From Chloroflexota bacterium (GTDB lineage: Bacteria > Chloroflexota > Anaerolineae > Promineifilales > Promineifilaceae), in NCBI GenBank assembly GCA_018004935.1, contig JAGNBF010000075.1, positions 1 through 38,410 of the forward strand: DNA of 38,410 nucleotides, written 5' to 3'. Made by a program: the position numbers and the translations under genes. The notes under the pieces are model-generated. The model did no database searches. It was not told the DNA's origin and saw only the letters and a list, made by a program, of their open reading frames with translations. How positions within the stretch are numbered: position 1 is the stretch's first letter; every line of letters begins with the position of its first letter. Shown here in pieces: positions 9,719 to 33,687 of this stretch.

Positions 9719-11875
9719 TCATTCAATCACGGCGGGTAGACCGGCCCCTTCCCAGGCGACCATACCACCATCCATGTTAGAGAGGTTGCGGTATCCCTCT
9801 TTTTGCAGGGCGTAGATGATTTGGGTGGTGCGGCGGCCGGTGCGGCAGACCAGCACAACCTCTTCATCACGAGGAAGTTTGAATTCGCGGCTCATGATTT
9901 TGGGCATGGGGATAAGTTCGGCATTGGGGATGTGCCCGGTGACAAATTCTTCTGGCTCACGCACGTCAATGATTCGCGGCCGCGTGCCCTCATCACTCAT
10001 TTGTTGCCACAAAGCGTGTGGTTGCACATGGGGAATCTTCGCCGTCACCGGAACCAGAGTTCCCGATGGCACTCCTTTCGGGTTATAACTCTTGGGCAAA
10101 CTCTGGCACTCCTTCCAGATTTTTACCCGGCACTGATAAATACACACTCCCGGATCCATCACCTGATAAAAAATATGTTCAATCGCCCGCTCCTGAGACG
10201 GAAAATGATCCACCCCCAAGAAACGGGTAAACCCACTGGCCTTGAATTTCTCCCACACATCATGGCGTACCCCCACCATGAAGACATCACCACCCCGTTG
10301 CCGATACAGGCGCACCACCGTCTCCAACATGTGCAGACCGCTGATGTCACACAAATTGACCCGGTGCATCCGTAACAATAGCAACTTTTGCTCCGGATGG
10401 ATCTCCATATTTGCCCGAATCTCTTCCTCAACATGGTGGCAAGCCCCAAAATAAAGCGACCCTTCGATGGTCAGCACCGCCAATTGGGGGCAAACTGGTT
10501 TGGCCGGGTTGTGGACAAAATGGGCGAACTTTTCATCGGGTAGGACGGAATGTACGGGCGGGGTGGAGGTGCGGGCAATGTACCGGCCAAATGAGGCCAA
10601 TACCCCGGCCAATACGGCAAACTCCAGCGGCAAAAACAAGGTCGCCAAGAAGGTGGCAACCATGATGCCGCTATCCCCTTTGGAGGTGCGCCACACCCGT
10701 TTCATCTCTTTGCGATCCACCATCGTATAAGCGGTAACGATAATCGTGCCAGCCAGAGCCGCACGGGGCAGAAACGCGGCGAAGGGAGCAAAGAGGAGCA
10801 CTGCCAGCAAGACGAACAAACCAGAGAAGATGACCGCCAGCGGTGTTTTGGCACCCGAACTGTAGTTCACGGCGGAGCGGGTGAAGGAGCCGGAACAGGT
10901 GTAGCCGGTGAATAACCCGGCGGCGATGTTGGCTAAACCTTGCCCCACAAATTCCTGGTTGCTGTCCAAATGTTCACCACTACGGGCGGCGATGGCTCTG
11001 GCAATAGACATGGCCTCGACCAGGCCAATCAGGGCAATGGCTAAGGCTCCGGTCGAAAGTGGCCCAATCAGGCGGAGATTGAGTTGGGTCAAATCTACCA
11101 ATGGGGGCAGGCCACGAGGGAGTTCGCCCAGGGTAATAACCCCTTGTTCATCCAGACCCAGAAAGGCAACGAGGAGCGAAGCCAACACCATGGCTATCAA
11201 TGGCCCAGGCCAGGTTGGTTTGAAGCGGCGGAGCAAGATAATGATCCCGACGACGCCGGTGCCAATTAACAAGCTTGGCAGATGGGTTTCGGCCAGGTGG
11301 CTGAGGAGTGCGCCTAAAATTGAGACGAATTCGTCGGCACTACCCCCAGGTAAGCGTAACCAATGGCGCAACTGACCGGCTCCGATGAGTACCCCGGCTC
11401 CGGCGGTAAAACCAATGACGACGGAATCAGCGACGAAGTTGACCAGGACGCCCAGGCGAGCCAGCCCCATGCCCAGGCGGGCTACTCCTACCATGATGGC
11501 GAGTAGCCCCGCGGCCGCGATGTATTCTGGTGTGCCTGAAACCGCCACGGCTGTCAGGGTAGATAGCACCAACAATGAGGCCGCATTAGTGGGGCCAGTG
11601 TGCAGGTGGGACGACGATCCCCACAAAACGCCTACAACCGAGGCCACAATGGCGGCATATAACCCCATCTGCGGCGGTAACTCGGCGATGAGGGCGTAGG
11701 CGATGGCCTGGGGCAACATCACGACCGCCACCGTCAGTCCGGCCATCAGGTCAGGGCGTAATTGGGTATTGTTGTAGCCTCGGAAAATCTCAACCGGGCG
11801 ATAAAAATAATGGCCCGCATCTTTGCGCCATTGGGCAAAGGGGGTATCAGGGGTTGTTTTGGCGGGGGGAGTCAT
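9719..11875 (-). CDS. SulP-family anion transporter with STAS and C-terminal rhodanese domain
   Basis: 718 residues: a SulP membrane domain (about 30-430; opening DLMAGLTVAVVMLPQAIAYALIAELPPQMGLY), a STAS domain (about 450-560), and a rhodanese domain (about 610-718) with the active loop CRTGRRT, catalytic Cys677. SulP carriers move sulfate, thiosulfate, bicarbonate or related anions. A rhodanese carries sulfane sulfur on its Cys. The fusion suggests that the transported anion contains or receives sulfane sulfur (inference). It is the last gene of the - strand sulfur island, 45 bases after the TorD-like gene. Start ATG 11875 has only a weak ribosome site. A second SulP with a separate rhodanese gene sits at 31555-33687. 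Palindromes lie at 9976 and 11511. Confidence 0.93.
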   Translation of the reverse strand: MTPPAKTTPDTPFAQWRKDAGHYFYRPVEIFRGYNNTQLRPDLMAGLTVAVVMLPQAIAYALIAELPPQMGLYAAIVASVVGVLWGSSSHLHTGPTNAASLLVLSTLTAVAVSGTPEYIAAAGLLAIMVGVARLGMGLARLGVLVNFVADSVVIGFTAGAGVLIGAGQLRHWLRLPGGSADEFVSILGALLSHLAETHLPSLLIGTGVVGIIILLRRFKPTWPGPLIAMVLASLLVAFLGLDEQGVITLGELPRGLPPLVDLTQLNLRLIGPLSTGALAIALIGLVEAMSIARAIAARSGEHLDSNQEFVGQGLANIAAGLFTGYTCSGSFTRSAVNYSSGAKTPLAVIFSGLFVLLAVLLFAPFAAFLPRAALAGTIIVTAYTMVDRKEMKRVWRTSKGDSGIMVATFLATLFLPLEFAVLAGVLASFGRYIARTSTPPVHSVLPDEKFAHFVHNPAKPVCPQLAVLTIEGSLYFGACHHVEEEIRANMEIHPEQKLLLLRMHRVNLCDISGLHMLETVVRLYRQRGGDVFMVGVRHDVWEKFKASGFTRFLGVDHFPSQERAIEHIFYQVMDPGVCIYQCRVKIWKECQSLPKSYNPKGVPSGTLVPVTAKIPHVQPHALWQQMSDEGTRPRIIDVREPEEFVTGHIPNAELIPMPKIMSREFKLPRDEEVVLVCRTGRRTTQIIYALQKEGYRNLSNMDGGMVAWEGAGLPAVIE

Positions 11876-14163: not shown

Positions 14164-15570
14164 CTATTTTTCGACGGGTAATCCGGCCTGTTTCCATTCC
14201 ACAATGCCACCGGCCAGGTTGATGACCTCTTTGGCACCCTGGGCCTGGAGCAAACTGGCGGCGATGCCGGAACGGTTGCCGGTGCGGCACATCACCACAA
14301 TCGGTTTGCCGTTGATGACTTCATCGGCCCGTTTGGCGAGGTAGCCCAGCATGATGTGTTGGGCATTGGGTAGGCGGTTTTCTTCCCATTCACTCTCGGC
14401 CCGCACATCTACCACCGTCACTTCGCCGTTGATAATCTGGTCGGCGATTTCCTGGGCATGTTTGACGGTGTACGATTGGGTCATCAACCCCGCGGCCGCG
14501 GCCTCATCGGCGTCATAATACCCCACCACATCCTCAATCCCCACCTTCGCCAAAACCCGCACCGCTTCGGGCAGGTCATTGGGGCTGGAAATCAGGTACA
14601 ACGGTTGTTTGTAATTCACCAACCAGCCTGACCACACAGCCAGATTTTTGATGGAAATGTTCATTGTGCCGGGAACATGCCCATTGGCAAAAGCAGACTC
14701 GGCACTTGTGTCAAGCACCTGTGCCCCAGAGGCCACCAGTTCGGACAACCCGGCCACGTCCAGTTTGGACGGTAACGGTTTGTCGCCCATAATCACCGGA
14801 CCCACCTTGTTGACATATTTCATCACCGCAAAATATCCGGGGGCTTCCGGCTGTCCGTCCAATAAAGCTTCGACAAATTCGCTGGCATTGTCATACTGCA
14901 ACATCGGGTTGAACATCTTCTCATAACCGATAGTGCTGGAAGGAATCGCGCCCAACCCTTTGCCGCAGGCACTCCCGGCCCCATGAGCAGGCCACACCTG
15001 GAGATAATCGGGTAGTTGTTTGAACCGTTGGATGGATTCAAATTGTTTGTACGCGCCGGGTACGGCGGTGTTGGCGATACCGGCGGCTTTTTCCAGCAAG
15101 TCGGGGCGGCCAATGGAACCCACGAAGATGAAGTCGCCGGTAAACATACCCATGGGTTTGTCGGCCCCGCCGCCCATGTCGGTGATCATAAAGGCGATGT
15201 GTTCGGGGGTATGACCGGGGCTGTAGAACACCTCAAATTTAATGTTGCCGACGGTGAAGGTATCACCATCTTTCAACAGTTGGTGATCATATTGGTGGGC
15301 GTATTCGTATTTCCAGTTTTCGTCCCCTTCGTCAGAGACAAACAGTTTGGCTCCCACCCGCTCGGCCAGTTCCCGCGCCCCGGAAACGTAGTCGGCGTGG
15401 ATGTGGGTGTCGGCGGCGCCCACGATACGCATATCTTCGGCCGCGGCCGCGTCCAAATATTGTTGAACATCACGTCCGGCATCCACAATTACCGCTTCGC
15501 CAGTACGTTGGCACCCTACCATGTAGGATGCATGAGCCAATTTATCGTCATAGAAATATTTCAGTAACAT
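14164..15570 (-). CDS. Persulfide dioxygenase-rhodanese fusion (CstB-like)
   Basis: 468 residues: a metallo-beta-lactamase domain (about 1-240) with iron-binding THIHADYVSG (His56, His58, Asp60) and SPGHTPEHIAF, an inactive rhodanese-like domain (about 265-345, LDTSAESAFANGHVPG, no catalytic Cys), and an active rhodanese (about 365-468) with CRTGNRSG, Cys428. This order matches CstB of Staphylococcus, which oxidises (hydro)persulfides with O2 and transfers sulfane sulfur to sulfite to give thiosulfate. It lies downstream of SQR, so it probably consumes SQR's persulfide in the cytoplasm. GAGGTGAG precedes ATG 15570. Palindromes at 14492 and 15443 encode Ala runs. Confidence 0.92.
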   Translation of the reverse strand: MLLKYFYDDKLAHASYMVGCQRTGEAVIVDAGRDVQQYLDAAAAEDMRIVGAADTHIHADYVSGARELAERVGAKLFVSDEGDENWKYEYAHQYDHQLLKDGDTFTVGNIKFEVFYSPGHTPEHIAFMITDMGGGADKPMGMFTGDFIFVGSIGRPDLLEKAAGIANTAVPGAYKQFESIQRFKQLPDYLQVWPAHGAGSACGKGLGAIPSSTIGYEKMFNPMLQYDNASEFVEALLDGQPEAPGYFAVMKYVNKVGPVIMGDKPLPSKLDVAGLSELVASGAQVLDTSAESAFANGHVPGTMNISIKNLAVWSGWLVNYKQPLYLISSPNDLPEAVRVLAKVGIEDVVGYYDADEAAAAGLMTQSYTVKHAQEIADQIINGEVTVVDVRAESEWEENRLPNAQHIMLGYLAKRADEVINGKPIVVMCRTGNRSGIAASLLQAQGAKEVINLAGGIVEWKQAGLPVEK

Positions 15571-15781
15571 GATTTCTCACCTCAATTGGGATTTAGTCTG
15601 GGGTTAACAGCGGGTAAGCGTTCACTCCCCTCGGGAAAGTCAGGATTTCGATAGAATGTGATGTGATTTCCAGAGAAAAACTGGCTTCTTCTGAACGGCT
15701 ACCGTTAGAGGAACAGTGTACCAATTTTCTGCAAGTGGTGAATAAAGGAACGGTAAGGGATTGGTAAGGGGAAGGGGGGAC

Positions 15782-15854: not shown

Positions 15855-17048
15855 TTAGGCGCGGCCGCGTAAAATCCCATGCCAGTACATTTGTGGCAGG
15901 GCATACGCCTTCATGGCATACATGCTATACCGCTCCTGCGATTGATCAAACGGGAACGTCTCTTGCGGCGCTTTGTCATAATCAAACTCCGCCAACACCA
16001 GCTTGCCATAACCCGTCACCAACGGACACGAGGTGTAACCGTCATACCGTCCTGAGTTGGCCTGACCGCTCATTTGCGCCAGCAAATTCTCTACCAAAAC
16101 CGGAACTTGCTTGCGGATGGCCGCGCCCGTTTTGGAGGTAGGCAAACTACTGCAATCACCACAAGAGAACACATTAGCATAGCGGGTGTGTTGGGTGGTG
16201 TGCTGATTCACCTCTACCCAGCCCCCAGCCCCGGCCAGCTTGCTCTTCTTGATGAAATCGGGCGCACTCTGGCGTGGCGTGACGTGAATCATGTCATACT
16301 TCATCACAATTTCATCCCCGCCACCAGTGGGTGTAAACACCGCTTCCTTTTTGTCGGGGCGCAGAGCCACCAGTTCGGTGTTGAAATGGGTTTTGATCCC
16401 CTTCCGCTCAATCACCTTGTACAGGGTGTCGGCATATTTCTTGACGGCAAAAATAACCCCCATCCCAGAGGCGAAGACAATGTTGCTCTTGTTGCGAACA
16501 CCAGCGCGGCGGAAATGATCATCGGCCAGGTAAGCGATTTTTTGCGGCGCACCAGCACATTTGATCCCGGTGCTGGGCTGGGTGAAAATGGCCGTTCCCC
16601 CCTTGAACTCTTTGATGTTTTGCCAGGTCGCCTCTACCGAGTCGTAGGAGTAGTTACTGCATACCCCGGTTCCTGGTTTACCCACACTTTCTTTCAAGCC
16701 GGGAATGGCTTCCCAATCAATCTGAATACCCGCCGTCACCACCAGATAATCGTAGCCAATCGTTTTGCCATCGGCCAGGGTGACGTTGTTGCTGTCCGGA
16801 TCGAGGCTGGCGACCCGGTTTTGAATCCAATCTACGCCCGGCGGAATAAAATCCCGTTCGTCACGCATGGACTCTTCTTTGGGGAACACCCCGCCCCCGA
16901 CAAGCGTCCAGAGCGGCTGGTAAAAATGTTTGTCGGATGGCTCAATTAGCCCCATCGCGGGCGGGTTGGCTTGATCCGCCAATCGAGCGGCAATGGAAAT
17001 ACCCGCCGTCCCCCCACCAATAATCAACACCTGGTAATGGTCTTTCAT
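15855..17048 (-). CDS. sqr: Sulfide:quinone oxidoreductase
   Basis: A 397-residue peripheral membrane flavoprotein that oxidises sulfide to persulfide or polysulfide and reduces quinone. The FAD Rossmann motif is GGGTAGISIA (11-20). Cys130 (GVCSNYSYD), Cys164 (IKCAGAPQK) and Cys341 (TSCPLVTGYGK) are candidate redox cysteines, and NVFSCGDCSSLPTSKTGAAIRKQ is the second FAD motif. The sequence type (IEPSDKHFYQPLWTLVGGG) matches the HMT2-like or type II branch. ATG 17048 follows AGGAG, whereas the upstream in-frame ATG (17087) adds 13 residues without support. It is followed by the CstB-like enzyme that would use its product and preceded by DUF1641. A palindrome at 15861 encodes the C-terminal RGRA. 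Confidence 0.93.
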   Translation of the reverse strand: MKDHYQVLIIGGGTAGISIAARLADQANPPAMGLIEPSDKHFYQPLWTLVGGGVFPKEESMRDERDFIPPGVDWIQNRVASLDPDSNNVTLADGKTIGYDYLVVTAGIQIDWEAIPGLKESVGKPGTGVCSNYSYDSVEATWQNIKEFKGGTAIFTQPSTGIKCAGAPQKIAYLADDHFRRAGVRNKSNIVFASGMGVIFAVKKYADTLYKVIERKGIKTHFNTELVALRPDKKEAVFTPTGGGDEIVMKYDMIHVTPRQSAPDFIKKSKLAGAGGWVEVNQHTTQHTRYANVFSCGDCSSLPTSKTGAAIRKQVPVLVENLLAQMSGQANSGRYDGYTSCPLVTGYGKLVLAEFDYDKAPQETFPFDQSQERYSMYAMKAYALPQMYWHGILRGRA

Positions 17049-17130
17049 GTCATCTCTCCTGATATTTTTTTGTGTACGAATTGGCACGAGATAGATTGTC
17101 AGATAATCGTTCGTTTTGAGTTGGGCGGTT

Positions 17131-23601: not shown

Positions 23602-23638
23602 TTACCAAACCCTTGCCCACCCCTTACCCGTTCTTTAC
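23602..23638 (+). promoter_or_regulatory. 11-bp-phased TTAC direct repeats, likely OmpR/PhoB-type regulator site
   Basis: TTAC at 23602, TTGC at 23613, TTAC at 23624 and TTAC at 23635 are spaced exactly 11 bases apart. Direct repeats of one helical turn are the usual target of OmpR/PhoB-type regulators. The site lies between the divergent regulator gene (23685, +) and sulfur island (23507, -). A matching TTAC-N7-TTAC pair occurs at 31410-31424. Confidence 0.6.
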
Positions 23639-23684: not shown

Positions 23685-24371
23685 ATGAACAGCAAAATCC
23701 TTATCGTTGAAGACGAAATCAGTATCCAGACCATTATCCGTACCTACCTGGAAAGTGCCGGATACATTGTCAAAGTCGTTACCAACGGCCCCGACGCCCT
23801 GGTGGAAGCCCGACAGTGGCAACCCGCCCTGATTGTGCTGGATTTGAACCTGCCAGGTATGGATGGGATGGAAGTAGCCGCCCGCCTGCGTGAAACCTCA
23901 GATGTGTATATTCTCATGTTGACCGCCCGTAGTGAAGAGATGGATCGCGTTGCCGGTTTGCGTATGGGAGCGGACGATTACCTGGCTAAACCATTCAGCC
24001 CGCGAGAAATGGTGGCCCGTGTAGAAGCCATTTTGCGGCGACGGCGGAGTGGCCCAGCCCCGGCCGCCACTCTCATTTTTGCTCATTTGACCATCAACCC
24101 GGAAAGCCACGAGGCTCTAGTCAATGGTGTACCATTGGAGTTGACGGTGACGGAGTTTCAGGTGTTGTGGCAGTTGGCGCAAAATGTGGGGCGTGTTCTC
24201 ACCCGTGATCAACTCATCAACCAGGTGTGGGGTGGTTCATTTTATGGCAACGACCGGGTGGTGGATGTGTATGTGGGCCAGGTGCGGCGCAAACTGCAAG
24301 ATGCCACGCACGAAACCCTTATCGAAACGGTGCGTGGAGTAGGGTATAAGTTTGTGGATAAACGCACTTAG
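23685..24371 (+). CDS. OmpR/PhoB-family response regulator
   Basis: 228 residues: a receiver (about 4-118) with Glu9-Asp10, phospho-acceptor Asp53 (VLDLNLPGMDG), MLTAR and AKPFSPREM, followed by a winged-helix domain (about 130-225; LTVTEFQVLWQLAQNVGRVLTRDQL, VRRKL, ETVRGVGYKF). It is a cytoplasmic transcription regulator. ATG 23685 is chosen because the receiver begins there; the longer reading frame from 23613 would run through the promoter. The sensor kinase follows at 24625. The regulator is divergent from the sulfur island and probably controls it through the TTAC repeats between them (inference). Confidence 0.94.
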   Translation: MNSKILIVEDEISIQTIIRTYLESAGYIVKVVTNGPDALVEARQWQPALIVLDLNLPGMDGMEVAARLRETSDVYILMLTARSEEMDRVAGLRMGADDYLAKPFSPREMVARVEAILRRRRSGPAPAATLIFAHLTINPESHEALVNGVPLELTVTEFQVLWQLAQNVGRVLTRDQLINQVWGGSFYGNDRVVDVYVGQVRRKLQDATHETLIETVRGVGYKFVDKRT

Positions 24372-24624: not shown

Positions 24625-25740
24625 ATGCCCTGGTACAAACGATTACGCTGGCGGTTGATTGCCTCTCAATTTTTGGTGGCTTTTGTCGGGGTTAGCATGA
24701 TGATGCTGGCAACCCGGCTCATTATTCTGGGCACAGCGCCCGATGTGATTCGGCCCCAACTGATGTCCCTGCTAGAAGACCCGGCCCAGATAACCCAAAT
24801 CGAAGAAAATTTGATTTATGCCTTTCGGGATGCTGTGTTGGCCTCGGTAGCGGCCGCGGCCGCGGCCGCGATTACCGCTGGGGTGTTTTCCAGTTACCTG
24901 CTCTGGCGTACCCTCATTGCCCCTTTGCGCCAGATGGCCGATAGCAGTCGCCGGGTGGCGGATGGGCGTTATGCGGAACGGGTCATTGTGCCGGAGAACA
25001 GTGGCGAGGCGATGGCCCAACTGGTTGTCAGTTTTAACCAGATGGCGGCTACGTTGGAGCAGATTGAACAACAGCGGGTGAACTTGTTGGGCAATATTGC
25101 CCACGAGCTACGCACGCCGCTGACGAGTTTGAAGGGGTATCTGGAAGGGTTGATGGATGGGCTATTTCCTGCCAATGAGGAGACCTTTGCCTGGATGACG
25201 CAGGAGACGGAGCGGTTACGCCGGTTGGTAGATGATCTGCAAAACCTGTCACGTATTGAGGCGGGGCAGTTTAATCTGGATTTCCAACCGTTTGACTTGA
25301 TGGGGGTGGTGAACAGGGTGGTGGCCCAACTGCGGCCGCAGGCCCAGGCCAAAGAACTTACCCTCACCCTGGAGGCACACCTGGCCCACGTCCATGCCGA
25401 TGCGGATCGCACGGCCCAGGTTTTGTTCAACCTCATTGGCAATGCCATCCGCTACACCCCGGAGAAGGGGGCGATTACGATAACCCTGGCTTCAGAAGAG
25501 CGTTTTGTGCGCGTGGTGGTGCAGGATACCGGTATCGGTATTCCTGCTGAGGCATTACCTTATGTATTTGAACGGTTTTACCGGGTGGATCAGTCACGGG
25601 CGCGGGTGAGTGGGGGGAGTGGCATTGGCCTGACCATTGCCCGGCATCTGGTGTGGGCGATGGGAGGAGAGATCGCGGCCGCGAGTCAGGGCCCAGATCA
25701 GGGCAGTCGTTTCACCTTCACCTTGCCCCTCATACCCTGA
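24625..25740 (+). CDS. Membrane sensor histidine kinase (BaeS/PhoR-like)
   Basis: 371 residues. Transmembrane helix 1 (about 12-36), a short ~30-residue extracytoplasmic loop and helix 2 (about 70-95) are followed by HAMP (about 96-148), HisKA with His160 (NIAHELRTPLTSLKGYLEG), and HATPase with NLIGNAIRY, DTGIGIP and GSGIGLTIARH. It is the likely partner of the OmpR-type regulator 250 bases upstream. Helix 2 contains a run of Ala encoded by three overlapping GCGGCCGC palindromes (24850-24869). The loop is too short for a typical sensing domain, so the signal may be read within the membrane. Further palindromes lie at 25332 and 25675. Confidence 0.92.
   Translation: MPWYKRLRWRLIASQFLVAFVGVSMMMLATRLIILGTAPDVIRPQLMSLLEDPAQITQIEENLIYAFRDAVLASVAAAAAAAITAGVFSSYLLWRTLIAPLRQMADSSRRVADGRYAERVIVPENSGEAMAQLVVSFNQMAATLEQIEQQRVNLLGNIAHELRTPLTSLKGYLEGLMDGLFPANEETFAWMTQETERLRRLVDDLQNLSRIEAGQFNLDFQPFDLMGVVNRVVAQLRPQAQAKELTLTLEAHLAHVHADADRTAQVLFNLIGNAIRYTPEKGAITITLASEERFVRVVVQDTGIGIPAEALPYVFERFYRVDQSRARVSGGSGIGLTIARHLVWAMGGEIAAASQGPDQGSRFTFTLPLIP
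24850..24869. repeat. Three overlapping GCGGCCGC palindromes in a transmembrane helix
   Basis: The sequence consists of overlapping palindromes starting at 24850, 24856 and 24862. It encodes poly-Ala within transmembrane helix 2 of the sensor kinase. A double version is at 12087-12100 in the TorD-like gene. Confidence 0.95.
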
Positions 25741-26521
25741 TTCCAACCGCCACACTTAGGGTTCACTCAAAATTAAGTTGAGTGGCGTGGTCAGGAAACC
25801 GGCCACAGCAAATGGGGAAATTATATAACTGCTAAGCCTGTTGCCTGAGCTTGTCGAAGGCAACACAGGGCTTCGATCGAAGAATCTCGCTCCCTGACTC
25901 AATTTGGGTGATTTCCGTTCCTGGACAATGTGATTTTTGTCACTACTTGCTTTGAGCAGTGCCAGTTAAATTCTTCTTCATCACAAAGTACCCTTTCGAG
26001 ATCTGTTTTAGGGAGCTGCTATCAGGTACGTTGTCTTGTTCGTTGTAATAAAGGGCCGATTGCTTAGGGTTCGCTCAAAATTAAGTTGGGTGGCATAGTC
26101 AGAAGACCAACCACAGCAAACTCAAAGGTCATTTGCGAACGAACCCTTCGTTGCTTCGGGGGATGTGTTGTTATTTTGGCTTAACCTGGTAGTTTAATAA
26201 ACATTTTTTGTCGAATAGCTGTGACCGGTCCCCTAATCGCACCACCCATTGCTATGCGGCAAACCTTGTATGTTAGATTACTAGTAGCTTTTTTCTTCCA
26301 TCCTTCTCCTGAATAATAGCATTAACTGTTTGTTCACCGTGCAAGCAGCTGTCTGATTGCGGTACATTGATCCATTATCTCTTGGGGAGTGAGGGAGTTG
26401 GAAGCCAGGGTTCCAGATGACTTTTCTGCATGTGCCGAGAAGATCAGCCCCTCCCTCATACAGAATAACTCTGTAGCCAGATTCCAGTCCAAGAGTCAAT
26501 AAACCATTTTGGAGGAGCATC
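25741..26521. repeat. Gene-free 780-base region with two CCGGCCACAGC repeats
   Basis: The copies at 25757-25830 and 26065-26147 share TTAGGGTTCRCTCAAAATT at their left ends. The second also ends in GCGAACGAACCC, the inverse of GGGTTCGCTC, giving short terminal inverted repeats. Between them, 25929-25944 reads TGTGA-TTTTTG-TCACT, near the CRP consensus. No reading frame with coding character was seen. No GCGGCCGC occurs here. Confidence 0.7.
25929..25944. promoter_or_regulatory. Possible CRP/FNR-family site
   Basis: TGTGA-N6-TCACT differs by one base from the CRP consensus TGTGA-N6-TCACA. It lies about 580 bases upstream of the cytochrome c peroxidase gene, which is far for direct control unless the promoter is near 26000. 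Confidence 0.3.
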
Positions 26522-27637
26522 ATGAAGAAAGGTTTAGCAGTTTTGTTTCTTTTATTGTCAATCACGGCATTTTTGGTGGCCTGTGGGGGTACAGAAGCCA
26601 ACAATTCAGCCAATAACACCGCTAACACAGCGGAAGAAGTAACCGAAACGGTCGCCCTGGATGAGTTCGATGCAAGTATGCTCTCATCATTTGCGGCCCT
26701 GCCTGAAGTTGTCGAGCCAACAGCCTATGAACTTAATGATGAAATGATCACATTGGGTCGTATGTTGTTTTATGAAACGCGTATTTCCATTAGCCAGGAA
26801 ATTGCCTGTAACAGTTGTCACCTGCTCGATAACTATGGCGTAGATGGTCTGCAATTCTCCCTGGGGCATGATGGTAAACCGGTTGGCCGGAATTCACCGA
26901 CCGTCTACAATGCGGCTTTGCATGTTGCGCAATTCTGGGATGGTCGCGCCGCTGATGTGGAAGCTCAGGCTCAGGGTCCCATCCTCGCTTCTGGGGAAAT
27001 GGGTATGCCCGATCCCGAATATGTGATCACCGTTCTGAAAACCATTCCTGGCTATTTGCCGTTGTTCGAAGCCGCCTTCCCGGGTGAAGCCGATCCCATC
27101 AATTACGACAATGTGGGTCGGGCCATTGGTGCTTTTGAGCGTTACCTGGTGACCCCTGGCAGTTTTGATGCCTTTGTCGCTGGCGACGAATCTGCTTTGA
27201 ATGAGCAAGAAACGCGTGGTTTTGCCTTGTTTGTGAATATCGGTTGCCCCTCTTGCCACTACGGCCCGGCTGTGGGTGGTGAGAAGTACGCCGTCTTGGG
27301 TCAAGTTGAACCCTATCCTGGTCTGACTGACGAAGGCCGGTTTGTTGTTACCGGGGATGAAGCCGATAAATTTGCTTTTAAGGTTCCCAGCCTGCGGAAT
27401 ATTGCCGAAACTGGTCCCTATCTCCACAATGGTAGTATTACTACATTGGAAGAGATGGTGACTTTGATGGCAAAACATCAACTGGGTAAGGAATTAACTG
27501 ACGCTCAGGTTACGGATATTGTGGCCTTCTTAAATGCTTTAACCGGTGAAGTAGATGTTGATTACATCGCCGTGCCCGAATTTCCAGAAAGCGGTCCAGA
27601 CACCCCTGGCCCGTATGAGGCAGAAGCGACCAATTAA
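26522..27637 (+). CDS. Di-heme cytochrome c peroxidase / MauG-like lipoprotein
   Basis: 371 residues. A lipoprotein signal (MKKGLAVLFLLLSITAFLVAC, lipidated Cys21) is followed by a Thr/Asn/Ala-rich linker, then two heme c sites: C96-N-S-C-H100 and C242-P-S-C-H246. FEATURES such as GRMLFYETRIS, WDGRAADVEAQAQGP and KVPSLRNIAETGPYLHNGSITTLEE are typical of bacterial di-heme peroxidases (CcpA) and MauG relatives. It reduces H2O2 or oxidises an external partner outside the membrane. GGAGGAG precedes ATG 26522. A strong terminator follows at 27817. The gene contains none of the GCGGCCGC palindromes found in nearly all other long genes here. Confidence 0.93.
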   Translation: MKKGLAVLFLLLSITAFLVACGGTEANNSANNTANTAEEVTETVALDEFDASMLSSFAALPEVVEPTAYELNDEMITLGRMLFYETRISISQEIACNSCHLLDNYGVDGLQFSLGHDGKPVGRNSPTVYNAALHVAQFWDGRAADVEAQAQGPILASGEMGMPDPEYVITVLKTIPGYLPLFEAAFPGEADPINYDNVGRAIGAFERYLVTPGSFDAFVAGDESALNEQETRGFALFVNIGCPSCHYGPAVGGEKYAVLGQVEPYPGLTDEGRFVVTGDEADKFAFKVPSLRNIAETGPYLHNGSITTLEEMVTLMAKHQLGKELTDAQVTDIVAFLNALTGEVDVDYIAVPEFPESGPDTPGPYEAEATN

Positions 27638-30980: not shown

Positions 30981-31013
30981 GACCTGACAGGTTTTCCGAA
31001 AACCTGTCAGGTC
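30981..31013. repeat. Perfect 15-bp stem-loop
   Basis: GACCTGACAGGTTTT (30981-30995) pairs perfectly with 30999-31013 around CCG. It lies between divergent genes (thioredoxin, - ; rhodanese, +). It has no T run on the relevant strand, so a repeat or structural role is more likely than termination. Confidence 0.8.
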
Positions 31014-31352: not shown

Positions 31353-31409
31353 AACTACTTAGATGTAACGCGGCCGCAGATGTGACATATTCAGGCATTG
31401 TTTTTGCCC

Positions 31410-31462
31410 TTACATAATTCTTACCCAATCTTCGTCTAACATTTACTCCTCACCGCTACAAT
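31410..31462 (+). promoter_or_regulatory. Predicted regulated promoter of the rhodanese-SulP operon
   Basis: TTAC at 31410, 31421 and 31443 are in 11-base phase. The -10 TACAAT (31457-31462) sits in TCACCGCTACAAT. The distance from the second TTAC to the -10 is 36 bases, against 37 at the 23624-23677 promoter, where TCACCGCTAGAAT is used. No good -35 is seen, which suits an activator-dependent promoter. Confidence 0.55.
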
Positions 31463-31469
31463 TCCGTAC

Positions 31470-31487
31470 TTGTGAGATAATTCACAA
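31470..31487. promoter_or_regulatory. Perfect palindromic operator TTGTGA-N6-TCACAA (CRP/FNR-type)
   Basis: TTGTGAGATAATTCACAA is a perfect inverted repeat matching TGTGA-N6-TCACA. It starts about 8 bases after the predicted -10, thus covering the transcription start and early transcript, a position expected for repression. No CRP/FNR-family gene lies in the window. Confidence 0.65.
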
Positions 31488-31902: not shown

Positions 31903-31914
31903 GGAGTGTACCAG

Positions 31915-33680
31915 ATGACCTCATCAGCCCCTGTCTTGCCCGGTAAAACAAAACGATTTCAGTTGCGGGATGTTCTCCCTGTTTGGGGTTGGGCACGTAC
32001 CTACAAACGGGGTGACCTGGTGGGGGATGTAATGGCTGGTCTCATCGTCACGGTGATGCTGGTTCCCCAGAGTATGGCCTATGCTCTGTTGGCGGGGTTA
32101 CCCCCCCAGGTGGGGCTGTATGCCAGTATTTTGCCTCTGGTCTTATATGGGTTATTGGGAACGAGTCGGGCGTTGGCTGTGGGGCCGGTGGCGATTGTTT
32201 CCTTGCTTGTGGTTTCTGGTGTCAGTCCATTGGCCGAGCCGGGGAGCGTTCAGTATGGGCAATTGGTGCTGACGCTGGCCTTTCTGGTGGCGCTTATCCA
32301 GGTGGGCATGGGGTTGGTGCGGCTGGGCTTTCTGGTCAACTTTATGAGCCACCCGGTATTATCTGGTTTTACCAGCGCGGCCGCGCTGGTTATCGGCTTT
32401 AGTCAACTCAAACACCTGCTCGGCCTCAGCATACCCAATCTGGATTTCTTCCCCCTGGTCTGGTATGCCCTCAGCCACTTGAGCGAGACAAATCTCATCA
32501 CCTTTGCTCTCGGTGGTAGTGGCATTCTTGTTTTGCTTTATTTTCGTTATGGCCTGGGAACCCATCTACAACGATTTGGTTTGCGGGCAAACCTGGCCCT
32601 GCCTCTCAGCAAAAGTGCCCCTTTGGTTATTGTCTTGCTGGGAACCATTCTCGTGTGGGCTTTGCATTTGGATGAAGTCGCCGGGGTCAAAATTGTGGGC
32701 AGTGTGCCCGCCGGTTTACCCCAGATCACTTTTCCGCAACTGGATCTAAGCGTCTGGCAGGCGTTGTTACCGACGGCTCTGGTGATAAGTTTTGTGGGTT
32801 ATATGGAGAGTATCGCCGTGGCTAAATCCTTAGCCAGCAAACGGCGACAAAAGGTAGTCGCCAATCAAGAACTGATTGCTCTGGGGATTGCTAATCTGGG
32901 GGCCACATTTAGTGGTGGTTATCCAGTAACCGGTGGTTTTAGCCGGTCGGTAGTTAATTTTGATGCTGGGGCCAATACAGGCCTGGCTTCGATGATAACG
33001 GCTGGTTTGATTGCGCTGACGGTGATTTTTCTGACCCCGCTCTTTTACTTCTTGCCGCAGGCGGTTTTGGCGGCCATTGTTATTGTGGCCGTAGCGGGAC
33101 TCATTGACCTGGGCACGTTTCGGCATATCTGGCGCTACAATCGGGCCGATGCCATCTCTTATGGGGTCACTTTTCTGGCCGTACTTTTGTTTGATGTGGA
33201 AATAGGTATATTGATTGGCGTCGTGACGGCCATCTTGTTTTTTGTATATCGCACCAGTACACCTCATGTGGCGGTTGTGGGGCGGGTGGGGGAGAGCGAG
33301 ATTTACCGTAATGTGTTGCGCCATGAGGTGCAATGCTGGCCTCAGGTGGTCGCTGTGCGTATTGATGAAAGCCTTTATTTCGCCAATACCAAATTTTTGG
33401 AAGAGACCGTTTTAGGGTTGATTGTCGAGCAACCTGAGGTCGAACATTTCGTTTTGATTGGTTCAGCCATTAACTTCATAGATGCCAGTGCCCTGGAAAC
33501 TTTGGAAGCCTTACAGCGCCAGTTAAAAGACGCAGGTGTGGCGTTTCATCTGGCGGCGATTAAAGGGCCGGTGATGGATCGGTTAGAATTGATTGGTTTT
33601 GTGGATCATATTGGCCGCGGCCGCATTCATATGAGCACCCATGAGGCGATGAAGGCGATTGGTGTTTTGGATGAGGACGG

Positions 33681-33687
<7 letters not shown>
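31915..33687 (+). CDS. SulP-family anion transporter with STAS domain
   Basis: 590 residues. The SulP membrane domain (about 20-420; GDVMAGLIVTVMLVPQSMAYALLAGLPPQVGLYASILP, GGYPVTGGFSRSVVNFDAGA) is followed by a STAS domain (about 450-570; INFIDASALETLEALQRQL). It moves sulfate or a related anion. ATG 31915 lies 8 bases after AAGGAG; GTG 31906 would overlap that site and is rejected. Its last 7 bases overlap the end of the convergent hybrid-kinase gene. Palindromes at 32377 and 33617. Confidence 0.93.

Follow-up and report, generated by a model that had tools for sequence, protein, structure and literature searches.

The window, the 38,410-nucleotide stretch of Chloroflexota DNA that was analysed, carries a TTGTGA-N6-TCACAA palindrome between a predicted -10 hexamer and a rhodanese-SulP gene pair. 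This raises the question of whether the palindrome is a working operator and, if it is, which protein reads it. Judged from sequence comparisons, the palindrome is a genuine regulatory site, of a type that recurs across this bacterial group, and a new example of an already known kind of switch. It is likely to be a repressor operator at the predicted transcription start of the rhodanese-SulP operon. Sequence alone does not decide who the reader is; we lean towards a CRP-type protein for the site in the window, with the repressor Rex close behind. For this Chloroflexota group the locus offers a switch on a sulfur transport operon that can be put to the test, and it brings to light a CRP-type regulator linked to a DUF3307 gene. 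It is also a caution that a perfect 'CRP site' may be a Rex site as well.

The palindrome and its promoter

The sequence bears out the first-pass annotation in that the palindrome is perfect and follows the predicted -10 (Table 1). There are 7 nt between the TACAAT hexamer and the palindrome, and the rhodanese start codon lies downstream of both. The +1 was placed from the predicted -10, at about 31469, and is itself a predicted start. Compared with the CRP core TGTGAN6TCACA the site has no mismatch (10/10), while compared with the Rex consensus TTGTGAAN4TTCACAA it has one mismatch of 14 (13/14). One half reads TTGTGAG and the other TTGTGAA, which departs from the strict Rex consensus, with TTGTGAA in both halves. 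The SulP protein scores 492.7 bits against TIGR00815 (cut-off 380.45), and a later in-frame start is possible for it; the response regulator was scanned from 23688, its start codon being taken from the frame.

Table 1. Positions in the window of the promoter elements and of the genes associated with them
Feature	Position	Strand	Evidence or remark
Operator palindrome TTGTGAGATAATTCACAA	31470..31487	none	Sequence read, genome enrichment, orthologous promoters
Predicted -10 hexamer TACAAT	31457..31462	+	TA-rich hexamers in the same column of 7 aligned promoters
TTAC direct repeats, 11-bp step	31409..31425	+	Likely response-regulator boxes
TTAC repeats before response regulator gene	23612..23638	+	
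TTAC repeats before metallo-hydrolase/rhodanese gene (14164-15570)	15742..15768	-	
First operon gene: rhodanese with one domain, 115 aa	31555..31902	+	PF00581, E 2.2e-19
Anion transporter (SulP family) carrying a STAS domain, 593 aa counted from GTG	31906..33687	+	PF00916, PF01740
OmpR-type response regulator	23685..24371	+	PF00072, PF00486; candidate reader of TTAC repeats
Sensor histidine kinase adjoining the response regulator	24625..25740	+	PF02518, PF00512, PF00672

The rhodanese search matched 53 of the 59 genomes, often several times, and promoters were read at 21 distinct best-scoring loci. Thirteen of these, in which a TA-rich -10 goes with paired TTAC repeats, make up the compared set (7 aligned, 6 by eye); the 8 without paired TTAC were excluded (two in G014, and those of G030, G029, G020, G017, G023, and G007). 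SulP was found downstream in all of the 13 except that of G006. An operator is present after the -10 in five of the 13: it is exact in the genome of the window (G000), TTGTGAAAAAATTATCAA in G024 and G065, TTGTGAAAAAATTAGCAA in G064, and ATGTGAACAAAATCACAA in G031, which places it in three of the five genera, two besides that of the window. A G031 paralogue carries a degenerate operator, making it the eighth locus without a clear site, and there is no operator in the other seven TTAC promoters, five from genus g22 and two from genus g7. In the three operators of genus g5 (TTGTGAAAAAATTA[T/G]CAA) the TCACA half is broken, with 2 mismatches of 10 to the CRP core and 1 of 14 to the B. subtilis Rex consensus. 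The G031 operator has the CRP core in full and two mismatches to the Rex consensus. One TGTGAA half is kept in each clear orthologous operator. A scan of genome contigs with SulP turned up no relative.

Recurrence in the genome and the family

That the palindrome is a product of chance, without function, is very improbable. A first-order model based on the composition of the window predicts about 0.003 exact sites for the window itself and 0.57 for the 7.98-Mb genome, where 8 are present, against 0 for the reversed pattern used as control; at one mismatch the genome holds 38 against 3. The genome scan proposed in the first-pass annotation has in this way yielded the further sites that were sought. 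The exact site is found in 36 of the 59 genomes, that of the window included (102 sites against 1 control); the family, represented by 35 genomes, accounts for 88 of the 102. The one-mismatch sum over these 35 is 749 against 103 controls, unevenly spread, with 12 against 6 in G010 and 4 against 2 in G009. What chance would account for is the ordinary count in the window at two mismatches (3 matches, equalled or exceeded by 22 of 100 shuffles) and the absence of the palindrome from the equivalent TTAC promoters of two genera; it would not account for the excess in the genome and the family, nor for an operator in the same position in two other genera.

A rough caller of open frames puts 28 of the 38 one-mismatch sites before an open frame, at a distance of no more than 350 bp or inside the opening 75 nt, with 3 of these overlapping another frame as well; 9 are within an open frame and 1 is neither. 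Neighbours of the genome sites include, by eye, isocitrate dehydrogenase, malate synthase, parts of ATP synthase, glutamate synthase, cupredoxin, and an HdrC-like protein and, by Pfam, P450, acyl-CoA dehydrogenase, and an ArsR-type regulator. The reading of neighbouring genes covered 79 of the 102 exact sites, including those of G000. Among these 79, recurring neighbours are P450 (at least 6 genomes), a Na/sulfate symporter (at least 5), a 2Fe-2S thioredoxin-like subunit, an ArsR-type regulator, and a 4Fe-4S protein (at least 4 each), and an HdrC-like protein (at least 3), with one member of each group checked by Pfam. The genes near exact sites thus belong to energy and redox metabolism and in part to sulfur metabolism.

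In relatives, some single promoters carry two exact palindromes spaced by 22 to 55 bp (2478 and 2533 in L187, 2506 and 2538 in L157, 1501 and 1523 in L134). In the window, a weaker second site with two mismatches, ATGTGATTTTTGTCACTA at 25928-25945, is present in the gap before a di-haem peroxidase gene at 26522.

CRP-type and Rex proteins as readers

The CRP/FNR-family genes for which a genome scan had been suggested are present, with 15 HTH_Crp_2 matches, 8 of them above the cut-off and 5 strong. The recognition helices of these five are TRESINK (L006), TRVSINK (L007, on contig C84), TLYTVSR (L008), and VPDVVQR (L009 and L010). We give a CRP-type protein, most likely L006 (contig C33), a little less than an even chance of being the reader. 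L006 would bind the palindrome just after the -10 and so block the start of rhodanese-SulP transcription, in response to cAMP, NO, or some other signal, and a two-component system acting through the upstream TTAC boxes would switch the promoter on. Such repression by a CRP/FNR-family protein encoded elsewhere is what the first-pass annotation had envisaged. The operator is indeed in a place that fits repression and L006 is linked to the palindrome, but Rex reads a near-identical palindrome; for a sulfide sensor as the reader no support was found.

The link to L006 comes from its own locus. A gene assigned to DUF3307 by PF11750 is 183 bp upstream of L006 in G000, on the same strand, with TTGTGTTATTTGTCACAA located 57 bp before it. 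The same arrangement, on the same strand, is seen in 16 of the 18 L006-type loci examined, the other two being that of G050 (only 211 bp upstream) and that of G031 (a TRVSVNK protein). With a single mismatch allowed the palindrome stands before the gene pair at 10 of these 16 loci, and with two it does so at every one of them. At one mismatch there are 15 sites before the L006-type loci, while the reversed control gives 0 in the 18 upstream stretches, and 14 L007-type loci have no one-mismatch site. These counts link the palindrome with the L006 type, shift the odds from Rex to a CRP-type reader, and make the DUF3307-CRP pair look like an autoregulated operon. Within 300 bp upstream of the CRP genes L006 to L010 the best site has 3 mismatches, and there was nothing better in the 14 of 31 loci scored in the same way, the other 17 having given no helix match and so no score. 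The pair is at 3714-5443 of L094 on C33 and at L208-L224, and its DUF3307 gene is of membrane type.

The same palindrome has been assigned to the CRP-type regulator HcpR in Desulfovibrio, where the available text of PMC545781 places it before sat, apsAB, and the operon of a sulfate-transporter homologue; CRP sites are also treated in the part of PMC2633013 available. The likeness to these CRP/HcpR operators (TGTGAN6TCACA and TTGTGAN6TCACAA) lies in the perfect match and in a CRP-family gene that has conserved sites of its own, and that to Desulfovibrio HcpR in the energy and sulfur genes near the sites. The site differs in being at the inferred +1, away from the place for activation. L006 is a CRP-family candidate whose identity as HcpR or dependence on cAMP is putative. 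It falls below the NCBIfam cut-offs for both CRP and FNR. For the CRP-like HcpR the accessible part of PMC5701242 gives Arg, Glu, and Arg as residues 1, 2, and 6 of the helix; L006 has the Arg and the Glu, and Lys as residue 6.

Proteins of the L006 type (at least 50% identity) are present in fifteen family genomes, while a second CRP group near 40% identity, the L007 type, is more widespread. The motif is enriched in genomes without the L006 type too, such as G015, G023, and G007. In G015 no Rex was found and there are 33 sites against 6 controls, which counts towards a CRP-type reader; as this genome is without an L006-type gene, L006 is unable to explain all sites. Also in favour of a CRP-type reader, the five Na/sulfate symporter sites among the matches listed have A after neither TTGTGA, in which the rex sites differ. 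Against L006, G031 has the operator although its best L006 match is the TRVSVNK protein without a DUF3307 gene, and G034, G021, and G026 have L006-type genes although the promoter is without the operator. Also against a CRP-type reader are the absence of the operator from seven of the 13 orthologous TTAC promoters and its degeneration in an eighth, the better fit of the g5 operators to the Rex consensus than to the CRP core, and the rarity of G at position 7 (0.03 of 158 halves among the exact sites listed).

A plausible alternative, though one we hold rather less probable than an even chance, is that the operator is read by Rex, the NADH/NAD+-sensing repressor, which when bound to NAD+ would block the start and with rising NADH would be released. 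Rex is encoded once in G000, on contig C84 (PF06971, E 5.5e-17; NF003995, 267.6 bits, cut-off 126), where its own promoter has TTGTGAAAAGTTACACGA at the -10. A like site is present in all 30 of the family rex promoters that were retrieved, at 2 (22), 3 (7), or 4 (1) mismatches counted against the palindrome pattern. These sites approximate TTGTGAAA-N2-TT-N-CACGA, with A at position 7 in all 30 and T at position 12 in 24. Among named rex loci, which overlap partly with the family genomes, 49 of 79 have a site within 3 mismatches of the Rex consensus against 1 in the control, 1 of 80 having been too short. The fit of the window site and of the three g5 operators to that consensus at all but 1 of 14 positions, and the TGTGAA half kept throughout the clear operators, are consistent with Rex, as are the repressor-like place and a rex gene with its own site. 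So is G007, with Rex, without L006- or L007-type CRP, and with 23 sites against 4.

The G000 site is, however, a perfect CRP core, and G directly after TTGTGA is found in none of the 30 family rex sites, a point that is softened by the 3 of the 30 with C at position 12, which is that letter seen from the other half. In favour of Rex, the one position at which the window site departs from the consensus has T or C in footprinted Streptomyces avermitilis Rex sites, and strict TTGTGAA in both halves is not universal among them, according to the available portion of PMC5355995; an S. aureus Rex consensus is given in the abstract of PMC2883068. There is no rhodanese-SulP operon among the Rex targets named in the available parts of the cited literature. 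In G009, where both Rex and its promoter site are present, there are only the 4 palindromes against 2 noted above, and G015 retains its sites with no Rex found, which may reflect an assembly gap. Since Rex is found in 52 of the 59 genomes, its presence does not discriminate. A Rex matrix was built from the 30 family sites (20 distinct), with the outgroup rows G035 and G036 excluded and the second-best site used for G019 because it adjoins the -10. It scores the G000 site at 18.1, within the leave-one-out range of the rex sites (15.7-28.9), but 7 of the 33 G015 sites score equally high, and the matrix was set aside as a discriminator because it does not separate the window site from these.

Neither protein accounts for all sites across genomes, as the cases of G015, G007, and G009 illustrate, the last having Rex and neither the L006 nor the L007 type. 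The Rex and L006 site sets indicate that two proteins in G000 use very similar palindromes. That both use this operator, one palindrome reading two signals, seems improbable. Both families are encoded in G000, and Rex and HcpR1 binding sites are stated to be identical in the accessible part of PMC5701242, but nothing at the rhodanese-SulP promoter speaks for it directly. AA follows perfect TTGTGA halves in 2 of 36 cases in G015, 8 of 23 in G007, and 11 of 46 in G000 (counts converted from fractions, with no significance test), in line with two readers; as TGTGAAA halves are also found before L006-type genes, this split is not clean. It is conceivable, if rather unlikely, that in the family Rex and the DUF3307-linked CRP-type protein both read this palindrome and have an energy and sulfur regulon that they hold in common or divide between them, with promoters drifting from one to the other. 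The rhodanese-SulP promoter would then be one of these, gated by two signals in addition to the two-component system. A LacI-type operator was dropped from consideration, its gap being different.

Literature searches on a Rex regulon in Chloroflexi, on SulP with rhodanese, and on recognition helices listed no paper that we recognised as dealing with this promoter.

TTAC repeats and other elements of the window

Upstream of the rhodanese gene TTAC occurs at 31410, 31421, and 31443. The window has three exact CTTAC-N6-YTTAC repeats, one each in front of the operon, the response regulator gene, and the metallo-hydrolase/rhodanese gene, and at one mismatch there are 6 matches, a number reached by 2 of 100 shuffles. 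The repeats are common to the orthologous promoters of relatives, which together with those in the window supports a two-component input. In standing at 11-bp steps upstream of a -10, the TTAC repeats resemble the direct repeats used by PhoB/OmpR-type regulators. The difference from such systems is that the cognate regulator is here proposed from its neighbourhood only, the response regulator of Table 1 being the one that would read the repeats and activate the promoter. As regards the OmpR-type activation put forward earlier, the repeats hold up, being conserved and present before the OmpR-type gene, while the activation itself we infer.

A second SulP protein, with a rhodanese domain fused C-terminally, is encoded at 9719-11875. 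The best match of 15855-17087 is NF049943, a model for type III sulfide:quinone reductase, at 240.4 bits well under its cut-off of 525. The 24-base GGTCAGGAAACCGGCCACAGCAAA, which resembles a small dispersed repeat, is present in gaps between genes, exact at 25789 and 31302 and as a variant at about 26100. Upstream of the rhodanese-SulP operon there is an inverted repeat, GACCTGACAGGTTTTCCGAAAACCTGTCAGGTC, at 30981-31013; AAACCTGTCAGGTC is found in the G024 promoter too.
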